From positions 1 to 33,700 of IMG/VR virus record IMGVR_UViG_3300010157_000150: a stretch of DNA of 33,700 bases, one strand, 5' to 3'. Both the position numbers and the translations under genes were made by a program. Of this stretch, positions 16,823 through 29,206 are shown in pieces. The notes under the pieces were generated by a model, which saw only the letters and a program-made list of their open reading frames with translations, had not been told where the DNA came from and made no database searches. Source of the DNA: a virus. Each line of letters opens with the position of its first letter. Within the stretch, counting starts at the first letter, position 1.

Positions 16823-17314
16823 TTAAAATTTTATAAATTCCCCTAAATTAAATTTACAAGTGTATGTGTCTTCTGAACTTCCCCTTTCTTTGTCTTTGGT
16901 AAATCTTACGTCCCATAAATGTTTTGTGTCTCTTTTGACCACAAAAGCATGGGTCATTGAATGATTAACGATAAAAATGGCGGCGGGGTTCGCCCTATCG
17001 CAGTTGATTTTCTGCGCCACCATCATATCGGGATATGGGTAATCTTTCTCCGACGTGAAATCGAACCTGCGACGTTTTACCTCAATCGGATGCGGGGTGA
17101 AATCAATCACACCTTCCGTTGTTTTGTAGGCAATGATGTCTCCACGGTCCGCATATTCAATTGATTGATGCACAGATGGGGCCAATTCCATCGAAGGAAT
17201 CATAACGGTCAGGTTCTTCTCAAAGTTAAGGTATTGGGCAACCTTGAACACCGCTTCCCGTGTTTCCATAAAGCGTTTCCGAAACAGGTGGTATTCCCAT
17301 TCAGACTGCCTCAT
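16823..17314 (-). CDS. Putative PD-(D/E)XK nuclease-like protein
   Basis: A 163-residue protein with a likely restriction-endonuclease-fold core. YADRGDIIAYKTTEG supplies an acidic residue (Asp59), and HPIEVKRRRFDFTSEKDYPY gives the E-x-K pair (Glu78, Lys80). It continues MMVAQKINCDRANPAAIFIV, which fits the helix and strand after the active site. A homologue-like role as recombination or repair nuclease, or as a small Holliday-junction or housekeeping nuclease, is possible. The start at 17314 is preferred over 17368 because it overlaps the upstream stop as ATGA and has AAAGGG close by; the longer frame would overlap by 58 nt. Confidence 0.68.
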   Translation of the reverse strand: MRQSEWEYHLFRKRFMETREAVFKVAQYLNFEKNLTVMIPSMELAPSVHQSIEYADRGDIIAYKTTEGVIDFTPHPIEVKRRRFDFTSEKDYPYPDMMVAQKINCDRANPAAIFIVNHSMTHAFVVKRDTKHLWDVRFTKDKERGSSEDTYTCKFNLGEFIKF

Positions 17315-17781
17315 GCCACCCTTTTGCGGTCCGGCACTGTGTATCTCAGGAAGTGATGTTGACACCATGATTTACCTTTTACTGTTTCGTGGCCGCAATA
17401 TAATGTTTCAAAGTTCTTAATGGGGCCTACGATTGCTTTGCACTCCCCATACTTTAAATCCATTAATGTTTTATTTAATGGCTCAAAGTTTTCATCTTCT
17501 TTTATATCGTAAATGTTTAAAGGCGGTAATCTTTCTTTTTTGGCTTTTGTTATTTTAAAGTTGGAAACGGTTTTTTTCTTTGGCAATGGATGCAAAGGTT
17601 TTTCTTTTTCCATTGTCCTGTTTAGTAATGCAATGCCCCGCCTATGACATACTCCAATAACGGAGTTTTTATTTCGGTCGATTAATTCCATCGCTATGTT
17701 TTTGGCGGTATATCCTTTAGACGCCAAGTCGGACACTAATTTTATTTCTTCCCATGTCCAAGGTTTTGAATAAGTGACCAT
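17311..17781 (-). CDS. GcrA-like cell-cycle transcription regulator
   Basis: A 156-residue protein with both hallmarks of GcrA. The N-terminal HTH reads WTWEEIKLVSDLASKGYTAK, then NIAMELIDRNKNSVIGVCHR RGI. The Cys/His C-terminus reads YGECKAIVG, LYCGHETVKGKSWCQHH. A Lys/Pro-rich linker separates them. GcrA is an alphaproteobacterial regulator that works with sigma-70 RNA polymerase at promoters carrying CcrM-methylated GANTC; a phage copy could redirect host transcription or phage early promoters. Start at 17781 is chosen because GGAGAAA precedes it; an in-frame ATG at 17796 lacks a site. It is the first gene of the early operon, divergent from a Cro-like gene. Confidence 0.83.
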   Translation of the reverse strand: MVTYSKPWTWEEIKLVSDLASKGYTAKNIAMELIDRNKNSVIGVCHRRGIALLNRTMEKEKPLHPLPKKKTVSNFKITKAKKERLPPLNIYDIKEDENFEPLNKTLMDLKYGECKAIVGPIKNFETLYCGHETVKGKSWCQHHFLRYTVPDRKRVA

Positions 17782-17805
17782 TTTAATTTTCTCCATTTAA
17801 TGGTA

Positions 17806-17839
17806 TTGACATACTGCACATTCGCCTATAGGTTGTCAA
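17806..17839. promoter_or_regulatory. Divergent overlapping early promoters
   Basis: TTGACA (17806-17811, plus) and its mirror TGTCAA (17834-17839, i.e. TTGACA on the minus strand) face each other across 22 bp. Plus strand: TTGACA, 15-nt spacer, TATAGG (17827-17832). Minus strand: TTGACA, 17-nt spacer, CAGTAT. The two promoters therefore overlap completely and could not be fully active together. They separate the GcrA-like gene from the Cro-like gene. Confidence 0.55.
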
Positions 17840-17860: not shown

Positions 17861-18124
17861 ATGACGCATTTAATTGCTAAACGGGTTATAACAAAATTGG
17901 GAGGGCCACGGGCCGTCTCAGGAATGTTAGCCATGTCTACACAGAGTATCTACAAGTGGATGTGGCCGATGGACAAAGGCGGAACGGGCGGGTTGATCCC
18001 TGTCCGCCGCCAGATTGAATTGATGGTTGCGGCAAAACAACGCGGCATCATATTGACTAAAGATGACTTCTTCCCAAAGGACCTAGCAGATGCCAGTGAA
18101 GTACAAGGTAGCCCCGAAGATTGA
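17861..18124 (+). CDS. Cro/YdaS-like helix-turn-helix regulator
   Basis: An 87-residue protein. Residues about 6-35 (AKRVITKLGGPRAVSGMLAM then STQSIYKWMW) form the HTH of the YdaS/Cro type, in which 'GG..AVA..L..S...V..W' is followed by IPVRRQIELMVAAKQRGIIL and a terminal LTKDDFF. Such proteins act as Cro-like repressors in lambdoid phages. GGGGAAG precedes the ATG. Its promoter overlaps that of the divergent GcrA-like gene, the usual arrangement for a transcriptional switch. Target operators are probably in the 64-bp divergent gap or beyond. Confidence 0.8.
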   Translation: MTHLIAKRVITKLGGPRAVSGMLAMSTQSIYKWMWPMDKGGTGGLIPVRRQIELMVAAKQRGIILTKDDFFPKDLADASEVQGSPED

Positions 18125-18612: not shown

Positions 18613-19539
18613 ATGTCTCACATCGCATCATATTGGGCCGTAAACCAAACAGGCATTTCGTCGATGGCGAAGCTTGTCCTGATGGTTCTTGCCGATTACC
18701 ACAATTTAGAGACGGGTGGATGCTTTCCATCCAAGTCTGCATTGGCTGAGAAGTGCTGCTGCACGGAGCGCACCATAATCAATGCGACACAGGAATTAGA
18801 ATTTGCGGGTCTAATCACCGCAACGAGCCGCCAAGATCAATTCGGTCGGCAGAGAAGCAACCAGTACATTTTGAACATCAAGGTGGGGGAGGGTGAATTT
18901 AATTCACGGGGGAGGGTGAACGAAACGACACCCCTTGAACCAGTAATAAATAACCATACAAATCCTTCGGATTTGGAAGACCCAGTACTTAGCATATTTG
19001 CGAATCACGAAGAGCCGCCAGAAAGCAATAACAAAACCTTCTGGGATGAGGCGGTGGGTATGCTGATGGGCATGGGTGTGGCAGATGTCACGGCCCGCAC
19101 CTTTGTCGGGCGGTGTTTAAAGCTTGCCAACGGGGATCAATCAGAGATTTTACGGGTACTGGAGGCGGCTGTTGCTAACGGCGTCCGCGATCCAATCCCG
19201 TATCTATCCGCTGCTCTTGGCGGCAAAAAGAAGAAGGATACAGTCGTTAAAAACAAGCAAATCGCAAATGCATTTGCAGAATTGGAGGCAGCAAGTGAAC
19301 GCAGAAAGGCGAAGTGGAGGGAAGAATACGGCACGGAGTATGGTGTCCTTCCTGACACCGGAACAGGCGGTGCAGAAGATCATGCAGAACTACAGCCTGA
19401 ACCACATGGCGAACTCAGAGATGTTCCTAAAGAACGCGGCAGAAGCCCTAGAAAGGTTTCCGCCAGACGTGTTGCACAAGTTATCAAGCCCAGTATCGGG
19501 AATAGTAACGAAGTGCAAGTTTCCGCCAACGATTTCTGA
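18613..19539 (+). CDS. Phage replication initiation protein with HTH domain
   Basis: A 308-residue protein. Residues about 8-80 form an HTH_36-like winged helix common in phage replication proteins: SSMAKLVLMVLADYHNLETG, GCFPSKSALAEKCCCTERTI followed by INATQELEFAGLI. A linker leads to a second helical domain (about 140-200: FWDEAVGMLMGMGVADVTAR, then FVGRCLKLANGD and IPYLSAALGGKKK), which resembles the helicase-loader or primosome-type C-terminal domain. The last 80 residues are low complexity and lie over another gene in a second frame. It likely marks the origin and recruits the helicase encoded downstream. Start codon is next to a hairpin. Confidence 0.8.
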   Translation: MSHIASYWAVNQTGISSMAKLVLMVLADYHNLETGGCFPSKSALAEKCCCTERTIINATQELEFAGLITATSRQDQFGRQRSNQYILNIKVGEGEFNSRGRVNETTPLEPVINNHTNPSDLEDPVLSIFANHEEPPESNNKTFWDEAVGMLMGMGVADVTARTFVGRCLKLANGDQSEILRVLEAAVANGVRDPIPYLSAALGGKKKKDTVVKNKQIANAFAELEAASERRKAKWREEYGTEYGVLPDTGTGGAEDHAELQPEPHGELRDVPKERGRSPRKVSARRVAQVIKPSIGNSNEVQVSANDF

Positions 19540-24994: not shown

Positions 24995-25017
24995 TGCAGT
25001 CTCTCCTCTGTTTGCTT

Positions 25018-25029
25018 CAGTACTTCTCA
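25018..25029 (+). repeat. AGTACT-type repeat, copy B
   Basis: CAGTACTTCTCA, identical to copy A (16792-16803). It touches the -10 of the putative minus-strand promoter of the 23397-24994 operon, a position suited to repression. Confidence 0.55.
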
Positions 25030-25056
25030 GTATTGCGATTTACTGGAAAGAGTCAA
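25029..25056 (-). promoter_or_regulatory. Promoter of the 23397-24994 operon
   Basis: On the minus strand TTGACT (complement of 25051-25056), a 16-nt spacer and AATACT (complement of 25029-25034): five and four matches to the sigma-70 consensus. The AGTACT-type repeat lies immediately downstream. A GAGTC site (GANTC) overlaps the -35 on the plus strand at 25050-25054. Confidence 0.45.
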
Positions 25057-25090
25057 GCGAAAATATTTTTCTTTTCGGCGAAAATAATTA

Positions 25091-25118
25091 TTGACGGATT
25101 AAATAAAAAGTTTAAATT
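25091..25118 (+). promoter_or_regulatory. Promoter of the DUF932 gene
   Basis: TTGACG (25091-25096), a 16-nt A/T-rich spacer and TAAATT (25113-25118), 47 nt before ATG 25165. The surrounding 25060-25125 is very A/T-rich (AAAATATTTTTCTTTTCGG, TTTAAATTTAATTTTG), consistent with a strong promoter with UP-like sequence. Confidence 0.5.
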
Positions 25119-25164
25119 TAATTTTGCGTTCTGGAGAGACGCTTAACCAAATGGAGAAAATAAG

Positions 25165-25944
25165 ATGTTAGACATCGTTTCAATGCCGCAATCGGTTCAA
25201 GCTATGGCGGCCCATGAGTCACGTTCGCCTAAATATACACACCTTCCTACGGCTAAGGTTATTGAATACATGAGGGAAGCTGACTTTGTCCCTGTTCATG
25301 CCGTCGAAACAAGAGCCCGTAAAGCTGATAAACGCGGCTTTCAAAAGCATATGCTCCGTTTCCGTCATCAAGGCCTAACGGCTTTAGTCGGCGACAGCTT
25401 GCCTGAGATCGTTGTGATCAATTCACATGACGGATCGACGGGACTTCAATTATGGTCCGGCGTGTTCCGGTTAATCTGTTCAAACGGAATGGTTGTCGCC
25501 TCTGAGACTTATGGCAAGGTTAGTTTGCCGCACCGTGGCGATTTGCAAGGGAAGGTTATTGATGCCTCTTACAAGGTTATTGATAACGCGAATAAGGCTT
25601 TGATAGGTGTTCAGGAATGGTCAAAGATTGACCTTGACCGCTCCGCGCAACTTGACTTTGCGGCGGCGGCTTTAATGGCCCGCTATGATGATTTGAAAGC
25701 CTCGCCTGTCCAGCCTCATGAGATATTGAAGGTTAACCGTGCAGAGGATCAGGGAAACGATTTGTGGACAACCTTCAATGTTGTTCAAGAGAACCTGATT
25801 CGTGGCGGCGTAGGAAGCCTGAGACAGCTTGATAATGGCCGGATTGGATTTAGGTCTGTAAGGCCCGTTCGTGGCGTTGGCCGCAATGTGGAATTGAATG
25901 CTGATTTGTGGCGGCTAGCAGATAGCTTTGCACAGGTAGCCTGA
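25165..25944 (+). CDS. DUF932 family protein
   Basis: A 259-residue DUF932 protein, a family found on phages and plasmids. Recognisable segments: YTHLPTAKVIEYMREADFVP, KADKRGFQKHMLRFRH, PEIVVINSHDGSTGLQLWSG, VFRLICSNGMVVAS, then ARYDDLKASPVQPHEILKVN and a basic C-terminus RPVRGVGRNVELNADLWRLA. The 'N.H.G....L..G.FR..CSNG....' core is the most conserved part. Some members are annotated as plasmid-related (YfjQ-like), but no activity is established. A GGAG site eight nt before the ATG. Single-gene transcription unit with its own promoter. Confidence 0.9.
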   Translation: MLDIVSMPQSVQAMAAHESRSPKYTHLPTAKVIEYMREADFVPVHAVETRARKADKRGFQKHMLRFRHQGLTALVGDSLPEIVVINSHDGSTGLQLWSGVFRLICSNGMVVASETYGKVSLPHRGDLQGKVIDASYKVIDNANKALIGVQEWSKIDLDRSAQLDFAAAALMARYDDLKASPVQPHEILKVNRAEDQGNDLWTTFNVVQENLIRGGVGSLRQLDNGRIGFRSVRPVRGVGRNVELNADLWRLADSFAQVA

Positions 25945-25966
25945 TCAATCCAGTAAATAGCAATGT

Positions 25967-26000
25967 TGAGAGGTACTGATAGGAATATCAGTACTTTTCA
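25967..26000. repeat. AGTACT-type inverted repeat, copies C and D
   Basis: TGAGAGGTACTGAT (25967-25980) and ATCAGTACTTTTCA (25987-26000) form an inverted repeat of 14-bp arms with two mismatches around AGGAAT. Each arm is one copy of the AGTACT-type repeat. The pair sits 22 bp after the DUF932 stop. The remainder of the 209-bp gap (25945-26153) contains copy E and a terminator but no supportable gene. Confidence 0.55.
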
Positions 26001-26067
26001 TTTTTGGAATGTACGGTTCAAACAGCCAAACAAGCCCGAATAAAAGGCCCGCAATAAATAGCAACTA

Positions 26068-26079
26068 TGCAATGTACTG
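26068..26079 (+). repeat. AGTACT-type repeat, copy E
   Basis: TGCAATGTACTG (minus: CAGTACATTGCA). Shares the YAGTAC core with the other copies but has ATTGCA instead of TTYTCA after it, as does the copy at 27418-27429. Confidence 0.45.
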
Positions 26080-26116
26080 AGACAAGGCAAAGGATTATAT
26101 AGAATAAGGAAAGAGA

Positions 26117-26142
26117 ACAACCTGACCACAGGATCAGGTTGT
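26117..26142. terminator. Hairpin between convergent genes
   Basis: A perfect 9-bp stem ACAACCTGA (26117-26125) / TCAGGTTGT (26134-26142). The minus side is followed by TCTCTTTCC, a weak U-rich tract; the plus side has none. It probably ends the 26154-26957 operon and may block read-through from DUF932. Confidence 0.5.
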
Positions 26143-26153
26143 CAACTGAATAT

Positions 26154-26342
26154 TTAATCGCTTGACAGCTGGTGCGACCAGTAGGCTTTAGTACGTTTCA
26201 AATCAGGGAAAGAGACGTGAATTTTCTTGCTGATTTTGATAACAGTACCAACGATGCCGCAATATGGATCAGGAAAGATAGGCCGAACCTTTGTGCCTAT
26301 TCCAATGATACGGTAAGAACCGTTAGGATTTTCGTCTAGCAT
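26154..26342 (-). CDS. Small hypothetical protein, possibly SH3-like
   Basis: A 62-residue protein from ATG 26342, chosen over the longer open frame because AAAAGGAAA lies just upstream and the extra N-terminus is Cys/Arg/Gly-rich and unlike protein. Sequence MLDENPNGSYRIIGIGTKVR then PIFPDPYCGIVGTVIKISKK and IHVSFPDLKRTKAYW. The 'G..V.......G..G.V..I....V.V.F' alternation suggests a small β-barrel such as SH3/KOW. Function unknown. Confidence 0.7.
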   Translation of the reverse strand: MLDENPNGSYRIIGIGTKVRPIFPDPYCGIVGTVIKISKKIHVSFPDLKRTKAYWSHQLSSD

Positions 26343-26364
26343 GATATTTCCTTTTGAGATGTAA

Positions 26365-26382
26365 GGGGGGCTTTTGCCCCCC
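26365..26382 (-). terminator. G/C hairpin between minus-strand genes, copy 1
   Basis: GGGGGGC TTTT GCCCCCC (7-bp stem, 4-nt loop) in the 44-bp gap between two minus-strand genes. No strong U-run follows on either strand (CTTACATCT on the minus side). It recurs at 26697-26714 in the equivalent position, so it may be a processing or mRNA-stabilising signal. Confidence 0.45.
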
Positions 26383-26386
26383 TCTG

Positions 26387-26674
26387 TTAGTCGACAACGA
26401 CACTGAAAGACATATTGCCGAATGCATCCCTGACCTTGTCCTCCCAATCGATATCCTGTAGGGCGGATTCGATTAAAGACTCGACCTCCGACTCCCAAGA
26501 GGAGTTCCAGTCATGGTTCTCCAGTTCTTCGATACGCTCAACCAAACTGAGCATATTCTCCGCTTTGACGGCGGCATCTGCATTGTTGCAACTTGCGGCT
26601 TCCAAAGCGATAAGACGGCGGCGGATATCGCTGAGATTTTCAGCGATTGCCATAAATGCGTCAAAGTAATCCAT
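26387..26674 (-). CDS. Hypothetical coiled-coil protein
   Basis: A 95-residue acidic protein: MDYFDAFMAIAENLSDIRRR, LIALEAASCNNADAAVKAEN, MLSLVERIEELENHDWNSSW followed by ESEVESLIESALQDIDWEDK. Helical with coiled-coil character over residues 10-52. GAAAGGAAAGG lies upstream of ATG. No family recognised. Confidence 0.72.
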   Translation of the reverse strand: MDYFDAFMAIAENLSDIRRRLIALEAASCNNADAAVKAENMLSLVERIEELENHDWNSSWESEVESLIESALQDIDWEDKVRDAFGNMSFSVVVD

Positions 26675-26696
26675 TTCCTTTCCTTTCGTTTGTGGT

Positions 26697-26714
26697 GGGG
26701 GGCTTTCGCCCCCC
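26697..26714 (-). terminator. G/C hairpin between minus-strand genes, copy 2
   Basis: GGGGGGC TTTC GCCCCCC, nearly identical to the hairpin at 26365-26382 and in the same location relative to the next gene's ribosome binding site. Confidence 0.45.
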
Positions 26715-26720
26715 TATTGA

Positions 26721-26957
26721 TTAATTGCTTCCGGCTTGGACAGCTTCAATTCCGGCGGCTAGGCGTTTCTGAAAATCTTCATCTGAGATGACTTTAATCC
26801 GAAACTCCCTTGGCTCTTGCACAAATCCTTCTTTGGAGTTGTGCCAAGTTTCCCGATAGTGTTCCGATTTGCCGAATAGCGTTTCAATGGCGGCAGCCGT
26901 CTGAGCATTCATTGGAACGATGACGTTCTCATATGAAAAATTGATATGATACTTCAT
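26721..26957 (-). CDS. Hypothetical small protein
   Basis: A 78-residue protein: MKYHINFSYENVIVPMNAQT, AAAIETLFGKSEHYRETWHN, and a tail IKVISDEDFQKRLAAGIEAV. The 'MKY.I.F' start with alternating hydrophobics suggests a small α/β fold. GGAGAAC precedes the ATG. It is the first gene of a three-gene minus operon, and its leader holds an 8-bp perfect hairpin (26976-26996) that leads into the palindrome-rich region. Confidence 0.72.
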   Translation of the reverse strand: MKYHINFSYENVIVPMNAQTAAAIETLFGKSEHYRETWHNSKEGFVQEPREFRIKVISDEDFQKRLAAGIEAVQAGSN

Positions 26958-26975
26958 AAGGTGTTCTCCAGTTAG

Positions 26976-26996
26976 ATAGGCGACCCGTTCGCCTAT
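26976..26996. repeat. Palindrome, leader of minus operon
   Basis: ATAGGCGA (26976-26983) and TCGCCTAT (26989-26996), perfect 8-bp arms, 5-nt loop. First member of the palindrome cluster, 19 bp upstream of a minus-strand start codon. Confidence 0.6.
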
Positions 26997-27082
26997 GAAT
27001 AAGAATATAAAGATTATTCCTTTATTTAGTAGATCAAAGATTGCATGGCGGCTATGTTCTAATGCATACCTTACGTTACGTC

Positions 27083-27104
27083 ACCTGTCAATTTATTGAC
27101 AGGT
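27083..27104. repeat. Palindrome, operator type I copy 1
   Basis: ACCTGTCAAT TT ATTGACAGGT, perfect 10-bp arms around 2 bp. Core CTGTCAA-N4-TTGACAG at 27085-27102, repeated 30 bp downstream. Confidence 0.7.
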
Positions 27105-27114
27105 ACAGCTGTAA

Positions 27115-27132
27115 CTGTCAACTCTTTGACAG
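27115..27132. repeat. Palindrome, operator type I copy 2
   Basis: CTGTCAA CTCT TTGACAG, same 7-bp arms and 4-bp spacer length as copy 1 and followed by the same GGTA. Its start is offset exactly 30 bp from copy 1, three helical turns. ACAGCTGT (27105-27112), an 8-bp palindrome, lies between them. Confidence 0.7.
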
Positions 27133-27146
27133 GTAACATTGTAAGC

Positions 27147-27174
27147 TGACGTTGCGTCAATGTCAATGTGACAT
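27147..27174. repeat. Two short palindromes with TGAC arms
   Basis: TGACG TTG CGTCA (27147-27159) is followed directly by ATGTCA ATG TGACAT (27160-27174). Both share the TGAC/GTCA half-site of operator type I but with a 3-bp centre. Confidence 0.55.
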
Positions 27175-27185
27175 AGTGTCGCACC

Positions 27186-27207
27186 TTGCTTGCATAAATG
27201 CAAGCAA
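27186..27207. repeat. Palindrome, operator type II copy 1
   Basis: TTGCTTGCAT AA ATGCAAGCAA, perfect 10-bp arms around 2 bp. Core CTTGCAT-AA-ATGCAAG at 27189-27204. Confidence 0.7.
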
Positions 27208-27216
27208 TACCCTCGA

Positions 27217-27231
27217 CCAGGCGTAGCCTGG
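27217..27231. repeat. Short G/C palindrome
   Basis: CCAGGC GTA GCCTGG, 6-bp arms and 3-nt loop, between the two type II copies. Confidence 0.5.
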
Positions 27232-27259
27232 ACTTGCATTAATGCAAGTCAATGCATTG
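27232..27259. repeat. Palindrome, operator type II copy 2, plus adjacent palindrome
   Basis: ACTTGCATTAATGCAAGT (27232-27249) is a perfect 18-bp palindrome with core CTTGCAT-TA-ATGCAAG, offset 44 bp from copy 1. It is followed without a gap by the 10-bp palindrome CAATGCATTG (27250-27259). Confidence 0.7.
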
Positions 27260-27288
27260 ACATGTAAATTTTTTGACATGTCAAAAAA
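27257..27288. repeat. Palindrome with TTGACATGT direct repeat
   Basis: T6-GACATGTC-A6 (27269-27288) is a perfect 20-bp palindrome. TTGACATGT also occurs at 27257-27265, so the half-element is repeated directly with 16-bp offset. A stem with an A/T base of this type can also serve as a bidirectional terminator. Confidence 0.65.
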
Positions 27289-27300
27289 CCGACACCCCTA

Positions 27301-27339
27301 CCCCCCTTTTAGCGAAGCGTCCCGTAGGGAAAAGGGGGG
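27301..27339. repeat. C/G-rich hairpin with nested stem
   Basis: CCCCCCTTTT (27301-27310) pairs perfectly with AAAAGGGGGG (27330-27339). The 19-nt loop contains TCCC GTA GGGA overlapping its right edge. The C6/G6 arms recall the two smaller G6/C6 hairpins at 26365 and 26697. Confidence 0.6.
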
Positions 27340-27385
27340 CCCCATCCCCCAAATCCTGACAAAAATCACCACTACTTCTCACATC

Positions 27386-27397
27386 TGAAAAGTACTA
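27386..27397 (-). repeat. AGTACT-type repeat, copy F
   Basis: TGAAAAGTACTA (minus: TAGTACTTTTCA), matching copies A, B and D except for the first base and one pyrimidine. Confidence 0.5.
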
Positions 27398-27417
27398 CCC
27401 CTATTAAATCTCATTTC

Positions 27418-27429
27418 TGCAATGTACTA
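27418..27429 (-). repeat. AGTACT-type repeat, copy G
   Basis: TGCAATGTACTA (minus: TAGTACATTGCA), matching copy E in eleven of twelve bases. It overlaps the stop codon of the minus-strand gene ending at 27427 and lies 21 bp from copy F. Confidence 0.45.
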
Positions 27430-27675
27430 AGACCCCCCTACCCCTTTTTGGGTCCCCTCCCCCACCAAAGTTAATGGAGCGTCTGTTTCTATCCATAGCT
27501 TTGCGCCACATGGCCTAGGAGCCTCTGGGCGGTACACCATTCTTGATGGTCCATCTATAATGACCTCCATGCAGTATTTTACTTTACCGCCTTCTTCTAC
27601 CCTTACTACGGGTTCTTGGCGGTTGTGTTTTGCGTTTTGTTGGATGATGTTGCGGTTAATGTGTATGATCTTCAT
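27427..27675 (-). CDS. Hypothetical small protein
   Basis: An 82-residue protein from ATG 27675, chosen because AGGAGG lies seven nt upstream. The frame stays open to ATG 27771, but those extra residues are Arg/Ser-rich. Sequence MKIIHINRNIIQQNAKHNRQ, EPVVRVEEGGKVKYCMEVII, DGPSRMVYRPEAPRPCGAKL then WIETDAPLTLVGEG. Such short 'hydroxylation-of-nothing-known' type basic proteins with a C-terminal WIET segment occur as phage hypotheticals; no function is assigned. Last codons lie over a C/G-rich tract. Confidence 0.72.
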   Translation of the reverse strand: MKIIHINRNIIQQNAKHNRQEPVVRVEEGGKVKYCMEVIIDGPSRMVYRPEAPRPCGAKLWIETDAPLTLVGEGTQKGVGGS

Positions 27676-27954
27676 TGCGGCCCTCCTAAAGTGGAGAAAC
27701 CGCCAGAGTTTTCCCTGACGGCTTCTTGAGACCCGCCGACCGCGACGCGACCACAGTCCATTGTTCTCCATTAGCGGCTATACTTTACGGGTGGTAGACT
27801 TGACGCTGTTCTGCTTCGTTCTACCCAAGACGCGGAAACAGCAAAAACACGCCGCCCCGTAAACTTGTACATAGTAACTTCCACGCCTTACATCCGGACA
27901 TGGCATTTACCAAAGCTTGCCGCCCTGTATAGGGTGACAATAAAAAATTGTCAA
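27676..27954 (-). other. 279-bp gap with possible microprotein frames
   Basis: No gene of normal length is supportable. Two tiny minus-strand frames tile the gap with overlap-coupled ends: 27771-27872 (33 residues, MYKFTGRRVFAVSASWVERS..., GGAAG five nt upstream, ending TAATG onto the 27771 start) and 27672-27761 (29 residues, MDCGRVAVGGSQEAVRENSG..., GGAG upstream, ending ATGA onto the 27675 start). Base composition and length cannot prove either. Just after the stop of the next gene a hairpin TGACAAT AAAAA ATTGTCA (27935-27953) is present. Confidence 0.3.
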
Positions 27955-28191
27955 CTAACCGCAGACCATGCCGCAATAGCCCAGCGTATCGCTGTAGTGG
28001 CCTTCTTCTTCCCCATTTTCTTTCCACTCATACTTTGCCCGCCACGCCATGCACTTTGTACCAATGCATGCGCGGCCAGCTTCCAGCCCGTCATAAACAA
28101 GAACACGGTTGTTCATGCCCGAACCAACCGACATAGGGCATATTTTCTTGGCGGCTTCTACTTCCGTAATATAATGCGGCGCATTAGACAT
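27955..28191 (-). CDS. Conserved Cys-rich small phage protein
   Basis: A 78-residue protein: MSNAPHYITEVEAAKKICPM, SVGSGMNNRVLVYDGLEAGR, ACIGTKCMAWRAKYEW and YSDTLGYCGMVCG. The order 'ITE.EA....CP....C.G..CMAWR....GYCG' is a pattern I recognise from many proteobacterial phage genomes. The five Cys likely bind a metal, perhaps zinc or an Fe-S cluster. Function unknown. It is divergent from the metallophosphoesterase gene with a 76-bp gap. Confidence 0.82.
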   Translation of the reverse strand: MSNAPHYITEVEAAKKICPMSVGSGMNNRVLVYDGLEAGRACIGTKCMAWRAKYEWKENGEEEGHYSDTLGYCGMVCG

Positions 28192-28267
28192 TGCTTTTTC
28201 CCCAATTAGTGGTAATAAAACTTACACAGTTTCAAGGCATTATACGCCAAACAACGGGGAAAATCAA

Positions 28268-29206
28268 ATGCCAACACCTAAACTGTCTGTTGAAATTCTA
28301 ATTGAAACCCTCAAATTATTAGAAGCACATAACCGCAGACCAAGCATAGCAGCCAAGGCGGGTGGCATATCCCCCAATACATTTAACCATAGAATGAAGA
28401 TGGCGTTTGAAAAGTTTCCCAACGGATTAGACGATGTAAAAATAGACCGCCCTACTTCCGGATGGACCTACCCCCGCCTCAAAACAATTGAAGCACCAAG
28501 TACAAAATGGATCATAGGTTCTGATCTCCACGTCTGGGACGGTGACCCAACCCTCATCTACAAAGCTTTTGTTAAAGTAGCTAAAACCCTTAAAGTCGAT
28601 GGGATAATTTTAAACGGTGATATCATTGACGGGGCGCGAATCAGCCGCCACCCATCCATCCGGGGTTCCAAAGCCCCCAAGATTGAAAAAGAAATAGACA
28701 CCGCCAAGAAATGGCTCCGCCTCCTTCCCAATGCCAAATATAAACTGTGGACCCTTGGCAACCACGACGTCCGCATTGACAACTACATCGCCGCCAACGC
28801 CTCAGAACTGGACGGCTATATCCTATCCCTGCATGAACATTTTACGGATTGGGATTTCTCTTTTGCATTTGACATCAACGGGACGGAAGTCCGCCACAGG
28901 TTCAGGAGCGGAATCCATGCAGGATGGAACAATGCCCTACATGGCGGCATAAATATTATTACGGGCCATACGCACCAGTTACAGGTAACCGCTATGCGGG
29001 ATAGGCGCGGATCGCGGTGGGGCGTGGAGACTGGGATGATGGCGGACCCTACTGGTCCGCAGTTTCAGTACTCAGAAGGAACCCCGTCCCGGTCGCAGCA
29101 AGGGTTTGCGGTTATTTCGTATGATGAAGACGGGACAATGTTCCCACCGGAACTTTGTGAAATGATAAATGGCCGCCCCGTTTTCAGAGGCGACCACGTA
29201 TTCTGA
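28268..29206 (+). CDS. HTH plus calcineurin-like metallophosphoesterase
   Basis: A 312-residue protein. Residues about 5-45 (LSVEILIETLKLLEAHNRRP, SIAAKAGGISPNTFNHRMKM) form a helix-turn-helix. Residues about 80-290 form a metallophosphoesterase with every dinuclear-metal motif: GSDLHVWD (Asp86, His88), GDIID (Asp118), GNHD (Asn165, His166), GIHAGW (His217) and GHTH (His234, His236). Such phage enzymes may cleave nucleotides, nucleic acids or phosphate groups. The fused HTH suggests recruitment to DNA. Own transcription unit between two minus-strand genes; GGGG lies upstream of ATG. Confidence 0.88.
   Translation: MPTPKLSVEILIETLKLLEAHNRRPSIAAKAGGISPNTFNHRMKMAFEKFPNGLDDVKIDRPTSGWTYPRLKTIEAPSTKWIIGSDLHVWDGDPTLIYKAFVKVAKTLKVDGIILNGDIIDGARISRHPSIRGSKAPKIEKEIDTAKKWLRLLPNAKYKLWTLGNHDVRIDNYIAANASELDGYILSLHEHFTDWDFSFAFDINGTEVRHRFRSGIHAGWNNALHGGINIITGHTHQLQVTAMRDRRGSRWGVETGMMADPTGPQFQYSEGTPSRSQQGFAVISYDEDGTMFPPELCEMINGRPVFRGDHVF

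Follow-up and report, generated by a model that had tools for sequence, protein, structure and literature searches.

The gene-free interval to the left of position 27427 in the window (a 33.7-kb contig from an uncultured virus, analyzed over its whole length) carries a dense array of inverted repeats that is probably a cis-acting leftward promoter/operator region. Small leftward genes would be transcribed from it, and it would offer binding sites to two or more dimeric proteins. This reading draws directly on the excess of dyads, their fixed geometry, a promoter layout found in three phages, and the restriction of these features to one region. Ten perfect inverted repeats (arm of at least 6 bases, loop of at most 6) fall within 26970-27300, compared with a mean of 0.70 and a maximum of 4 in 300 shuffles. 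Over 26976-27339, a loop limit of 4 bases leaves 8 repeats with arms of at least 6 (500 shuffles: mean, 0.38; maximum, 3), and arms of at least 8 with loops of at most 6 leave 5 (mean, 0.03; maximum, 1). The densest 240-base stretch of the entire contig starts at 27061 and holds nine repeats; the next independent place holds four. Between 26957 and 27427 the only open reading frames are mechanical ones of 48 aa. An earlier sequence-only reading had thus been right to describe an above-chance cluster of palindromes in a gene-free region, and the repeats that it listed were recovered where it placed them or 1 to 3 bases away.

Arrays occupy the same place in two relatives, L038 and L023, with 11 and 12 inverted repeats (shuffle mean, 0.9), and these two are the densest palindrome places among 162 compared loci (1.1 Mb), where palindrome-rich places elsewhere are AT-rich or coding and weaker. 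The flanks of L038 are 88.6% identical to the window over 25000-26686 and 91.5% over 27340-27433, and for L023 the figures are 77% on one side and 82% on the other. Within the array itself, 167 of 216 aligned bases match between the window and L038, more than in shuffled sequence (mean, 138; maximum, 146) but far below the flanks, so the arrays are homologous yet change much faster than their surroundings. The complementarity of the arms is kept in both L038 and L023; with the excess over shuffles, this passes both of the tests that the earlier reading had proposed for refuting it. In L007, L014, L016, L020, and L032, which are more distantly related but share this gene order, the tested stretch has 0 to 2 repeats; this part of the genome can therefore do without the array. 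Part of the L023 array is duplicated in tandem, over 100 bp. In L007 (3391-3474) and L014 (4954-5068), other repeats (GTCTGTTCACGG-type and CTAATCAGTGAAG-type, respectively) fill the interval, which is thus generally variable and repeat-prone. A possible, if doubtful, reading is that the palindrome array is hypervariable: between phages whose flanks diverge by roughly 10%, most of its sequence would be rewritten and the dyad symmetry itself preserved, as might happen if operators and immunity regulators diversified together or if template switching renewed the palindromes.

The window encodes a large terminase with 46% identity to the terminases of Roseobacter phages CRP-901/902, along with a GcrA-like protein, an O-like initiator (18613-19539), a primase-helicase, and Erf and RecE-like proteins. 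Given the CRP-901/902-like terminase, the GcrA-like protein, and the other encoded proteins, the host is likely an alphaproteobacterium, and the virus is a tailed phage, probably of such a host. The array lies in a block of small leftward genes bordered by rightward genes for a DUF932 protein (25165-25944) and a metallophosphoesterase (28268-29206). To its right are a phrog_8676 gene (27427-27675, minus strand, 82 aa) and a small leftward gene at 28191-27955. Past the array come two minus-strand genes with no assigned function, the first at 26721-26957 (78 aa) and the second at 26387-26674 (95 aa; conserved in L038), and a further small leftward gene at 26339-26154. In L038 the position corresponding to the first of these is taken by an unrelated 81-aa open reading frame; since the array is kept beside it, the array is not tied to gene 26957-26721. 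The phrog_8676 protein has 230 relatives among virus contigs and is conserved to an unusual degree, with 73 to 84% identity in the best 80. An Rfam search returned no match in the array and a single one in the window, a CyVA-1 RNA (RF02965) at 27785-27862 on the minus strand, which also occurs in L014 (5516-5593) and L007 (3858-3935); this RNA is thus found in a phage of probable alphaproteobacterial host and is conserved in its relatives. No prophage relatives were found through the metallophosphoesterase, and searches of named phages and plasmids (with window positions 26700-28300 and the L023 array as queries for the phages) gave only short chance DNA matches.

Sorted by half-site and spacer, the dyads fall into three families, F1, F2, and F3, in agreement with the earlier proposal of at least two; sites for more than one protein, also proposed then, would be the simplest reading of these families. 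F1 (TKACGYAACGTMA) has just two exact occurrences in the window, at 27071 and 27147, and in all three phages it sits in the spacer of leftward sigma-70-like promoters, between -35 and -10. The best of these in the window, the candidate promoter P1 (27138-27166, minus strand), reads TTGACA-17-TACAAT and matches the consensus at 11 of 12 positions. Its spacer holds the F1 dyad TGACGCAACGTCA (27147-27159), which is also present in the spacers of the promoter of L038 and both promoters of L023, and its -35 is overlapped by a further dyad, ATGTCAATGTGACAT (27160-27174). A second candidate, P2 (27063-27091, minus strand; TTGACA-17-TATGCA), has a weak -10 and was read from the sequence below the scan threshold, but it is laid out like P1, 75 bp downstream of it, with the F1 dyad TGACGTAACGTAA (27071-27083, minus strand) in its spacer. 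The corresponding leftward promoters are TTGTCA-18-TATAAT in L038 (6912-6883; 11/12) and, in L023, TTGACA-18-TACAAT (462-433; 11/12) and TTGACA-18-TAACAT (600-571; 10/12), all with F1 in the spacer. Promoter-like matches in L038 and L023 do not exceed shuffles in total number, though their scores and shared layout are unusual. When each TTGACA copy in the window was tried as a -35, with the 16 to 18 bases downstream read, a good -10 appeared only at P1. Beyond L038 and L023, the pattern GCTATGCAT-N3-ATGCATAGC was met in one hairpin of L083, an otherwise unlike phage, and this candidate was set aside.

F2 (TGTCAA-N4-TTGACA) has five copies in the window, four in L038, and three in L023, and its half-site centers lie 10 bp apart, about one helical turn. 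Two window copies match at 12 of 12 positions: TGTCAATTTATTGACA (27086-27101) overlaps the -35 of P2, and TGTCAACTCTTTGACA (27116-27131) sits shortly past the P1 -10, close to where transcription should begin. The remaining three form a head-to-tail tandem of 16-bp sites at 27247-27262, 27263-27278, and 27279-27294 (11, 11, and 10 of 12). L023 has a three-copy 16-bp tandem as well (595-642), at the same right-hand end of the array as in the window, whereas the spacings in L038 are 17, 15, and 16 bp rather than exactly 16. Shuffles predict 0.0005 exact copies of the core GTCAA-N4-TTGAC for the three arrays together; the arrays contain 3, 3, and 2, and none was found in the other loci among the 162 compared, apart from overlapping pieces of the same three contigs. 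Outside the array, the window has a single 10/12 match to F2, and none turned up at the Cro-like/GcrA-like switch near 17.8 kb. The hexamer TTGACA occurs 8, 6, and 6 times in the three arrays, and seven 6-mers are present at least twice in each of them (0.15 expected). Apart from L023, the pattern TTACGTTACGTMAC..TGTCAA had one match elsewhere, in L082, and that match was rejected because it is coding.

The original list of palindromes needs three corrections. The repeats at 27250-27259 and 27269-27288 (the latter TTTTTTGACATGTCAAAAAA) are the core and junction of the three head-to-tail sites, so the striking palindrome TTTTTTGACATGTCAAAAAA arises where neighboring F2 sites abut. The short palindrome at 27105-27112 is present without representing an excess, as a count as high as the observed one at that size (arm of at least 4, no loop) turns up in 44 of 500 shuffles. 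The 10-bp stem at 27301-27339 (CCCCCCTTTT/AAAAGGGGGG, with a 19-nt loop) is likewise real but lies outside the array, in a separate C-rich module. A similar module occurs in L007, L014, L020, L023, and L032, all of which except L023 are without the array. The phrog_8676 gene appears to have been inserted into this module, which is continuous in relatives.

F3 (TTGCAT-N2-ATGCAA) has exact copies at just two window positions, 27190 and 27234, within the dyads TTGCTTGCATAAATGCAAGCAA (27186-27207) and GACTTGCATTAATGCAAGTC (27231-27250); the relatives hold related TGCAT dyads with different spacing. Several dyads belong to no family of fixed geometry, among them CCAGGCGTAGCCTGG (27217-27231) in the window and TATGGTCATGACATGACCATA in L023. 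The Shine-Dalgarno dyad, ATAGGCGA-N5-TCGCCTAT (26976-26996), immediately precedes the ribosome-binding site of gene 26957-26721; its L038 counterpart, CTAGGCAA-N2-TTGCCTAG, has two pairs changed on both sides and a different gene downstream. This is the clearest single dyad kept through change, and compensated change was counted for it alone, to the exclusion of the promoter-spacer dyad and a GGC hairpin. ATAGGCGA also occurs at 17822, in the Cro-like/GcrA-like switch, besides both arms of 26976-26996; the window has four occurrences in all (0.98 expected), and it may possibly be a site shared by the switch and the dyad.

Overall, the array combines a promoter overlapped by operator-size dyads with a repeated operator of constant half-site spacing, and the placement of F1 in the spacer and of F2 at the P2 -35 and the P1 start is, to judge by these predicted hexamers, the layout of a repressible promoter. 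From this arrangement we infer protein binding, a repressive effect, the responding genes, and the activity of P1. P1, possibly together with P2, would drive the small leftward genes from 26957 to about 26150. A putative dimeric regulator bound to F1 between the -35 and -10 would exclude RNA polymerase, and a second putative dimer on F2 could repress or, from the upstream tandem, activate. Two of the F2 sites border or overlap the promoters, and the other three form the tandem about 80 to 130 bp upstream of P1, a spacing that would allow cooperative binding or looping, and the TTGCAT dyads of F3 may be read by a third putative factor. The DNA-binding proteins encoded in the window, a contig that is possibly incomplete, include a Cro-like protein (17861-18124), about 9 kb from the array, and the GcrA-like cell-cycle regulator encoded next to it (17311-17796, minus strand). 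GANTC, the CcrM/GcrA methylation site, is absent from 26901-27500, compared with 58 occurrences in the window, and regulation of this stretch by the GcrA-like protein through GANTC is therefore unlikely.

Alternatively, the dyads could form hairpins in a leftward transcript; ahead of gene 26957 this would be a structured leader or noncoding RNA acting on stability, translation, or termination. Predicted folding of the leftward strand is strong in all three arrays (z = -7.9, -8.6, and -7.8), the Shine-Dalgarno dyad is still paired in L038 despite its two changed pairs, and outer mismatches lean toward G-U on the leftward strand (10 versus 4), although these are too few to convince. However, the opposite strand of the window folds equally well or better (z = -10.0), and strong folding on both strands is what palindromes acting as DNA dyads would be expected to give. 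Many of the dyads have loops of 0 to 2 bases, too short for hairpins; those to the right of P1 are upstream of that promoter; and hairpins need neither fixed spacing nor repeated half-sites. We consider an RNA function for the array unlikely.

Palindromy itself might instead be the object of selection or mutation: the dyads would be remade again and again, perhaps through template-switch repair of imperfect palindromes or because they serve as decoys for palindrome-binding enzymes, and the families would be by-products. The disparity between array and flank identity, the tandem duplication in L023, and the 10 to 12 dyads present in each of the three arrays despite turnover all fit such a process, and the dyads outside any family, together with the high turnover, keep it in consideration. 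If palindromy alone mattered, however, F1 and F2 would not be expected to share half-sites and keep their spacers constant, and we judge this explanation quite improbable.

A near-palindromic 28-bp element, approximately CAGTACTTCTCA-N6-GCAATGTACTG, occurs at about eight mostly intergenic sites (16792, 18983, 25018, 25951, 25989, 26052, 27370, and 27402), with two copies (CAGTACTTCTCA..GTACTG) at 27370-27429. It gives nine strand-hits of at least 20/28 in the window and none in 15 shuffled windows, is present in relatives too, and resembles an operator or stoperator-like site of genome-wide distribution. The region had also been proposed as an origin of replication, and its tandem short sites in noncoding DNA do recall iteron-type phage and plasmid origins; the adjoining C-rich module with its 28-bp repeats and the O-like initiator and primase-helicase encoded in the window also speak for an origin; but F2 is palindromic rather than directional, cumulative GC skew near 26 to 27 kb is at a maximum rather than a minimum (weak evidence in a partial phage contig), the most iteron-like site is the dispersed 28-bp element, with one copy inside the O-like gene at 18983, and relatives that must replicate too are without the array, so that an origin, or part of one, is very unlikely here.

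As a promoter/operator region, the array belongs to a kind of system already known, the cis-regulatory array, although its density and turnover are unusual. Lambdoid oR/oL regions are clusters of symmetric operators that overlap promoter hexamers, and the array resembles them in its clustered dyads, in half-site centers about one helical turn apart, and in the overlap with promoter hexamers. It differs in its number of dyads, about ten from three or more families where lambdoid regions have a few from one, in lying away from the repressor/cro gene, and in turning over much faster than its flanks; the lambda-type oR layout, with operators between divergent repressor and cro genes, was not found, the array lying among small leftward genes. 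Lambdoid repressors bind a few symmetric operators (PMC1934351). Among the operators and stoperators of mycobacteriophages L5 and L1, the L5 operator, GGTGGMTGTCAAG, contains TGTCAA, and one copy overlaps the early promoter Pleft; L5 sites are asymmetric 13-mers, bound by monomers and dispersed over the genome (PMC1934351, PMC9283540). F2 shares with these stoperators its TGTCAA half-site and its occurrence at multiple sites, but it is symmetric and confined to one region, and the 28-bp element of this phage is closer to them in distribution. The literature search, which had partial coverage, returned no description of the array. If our reading is right, at least two, and perhaps three, dimeric regulators act on one compact promoter in this phage, an apparent origin can be struck from the candidate list, and the natural variants in L038 and L023, with rewritten operators and kept geometry, would offer a ready test of how sites and proteins co-diversify.
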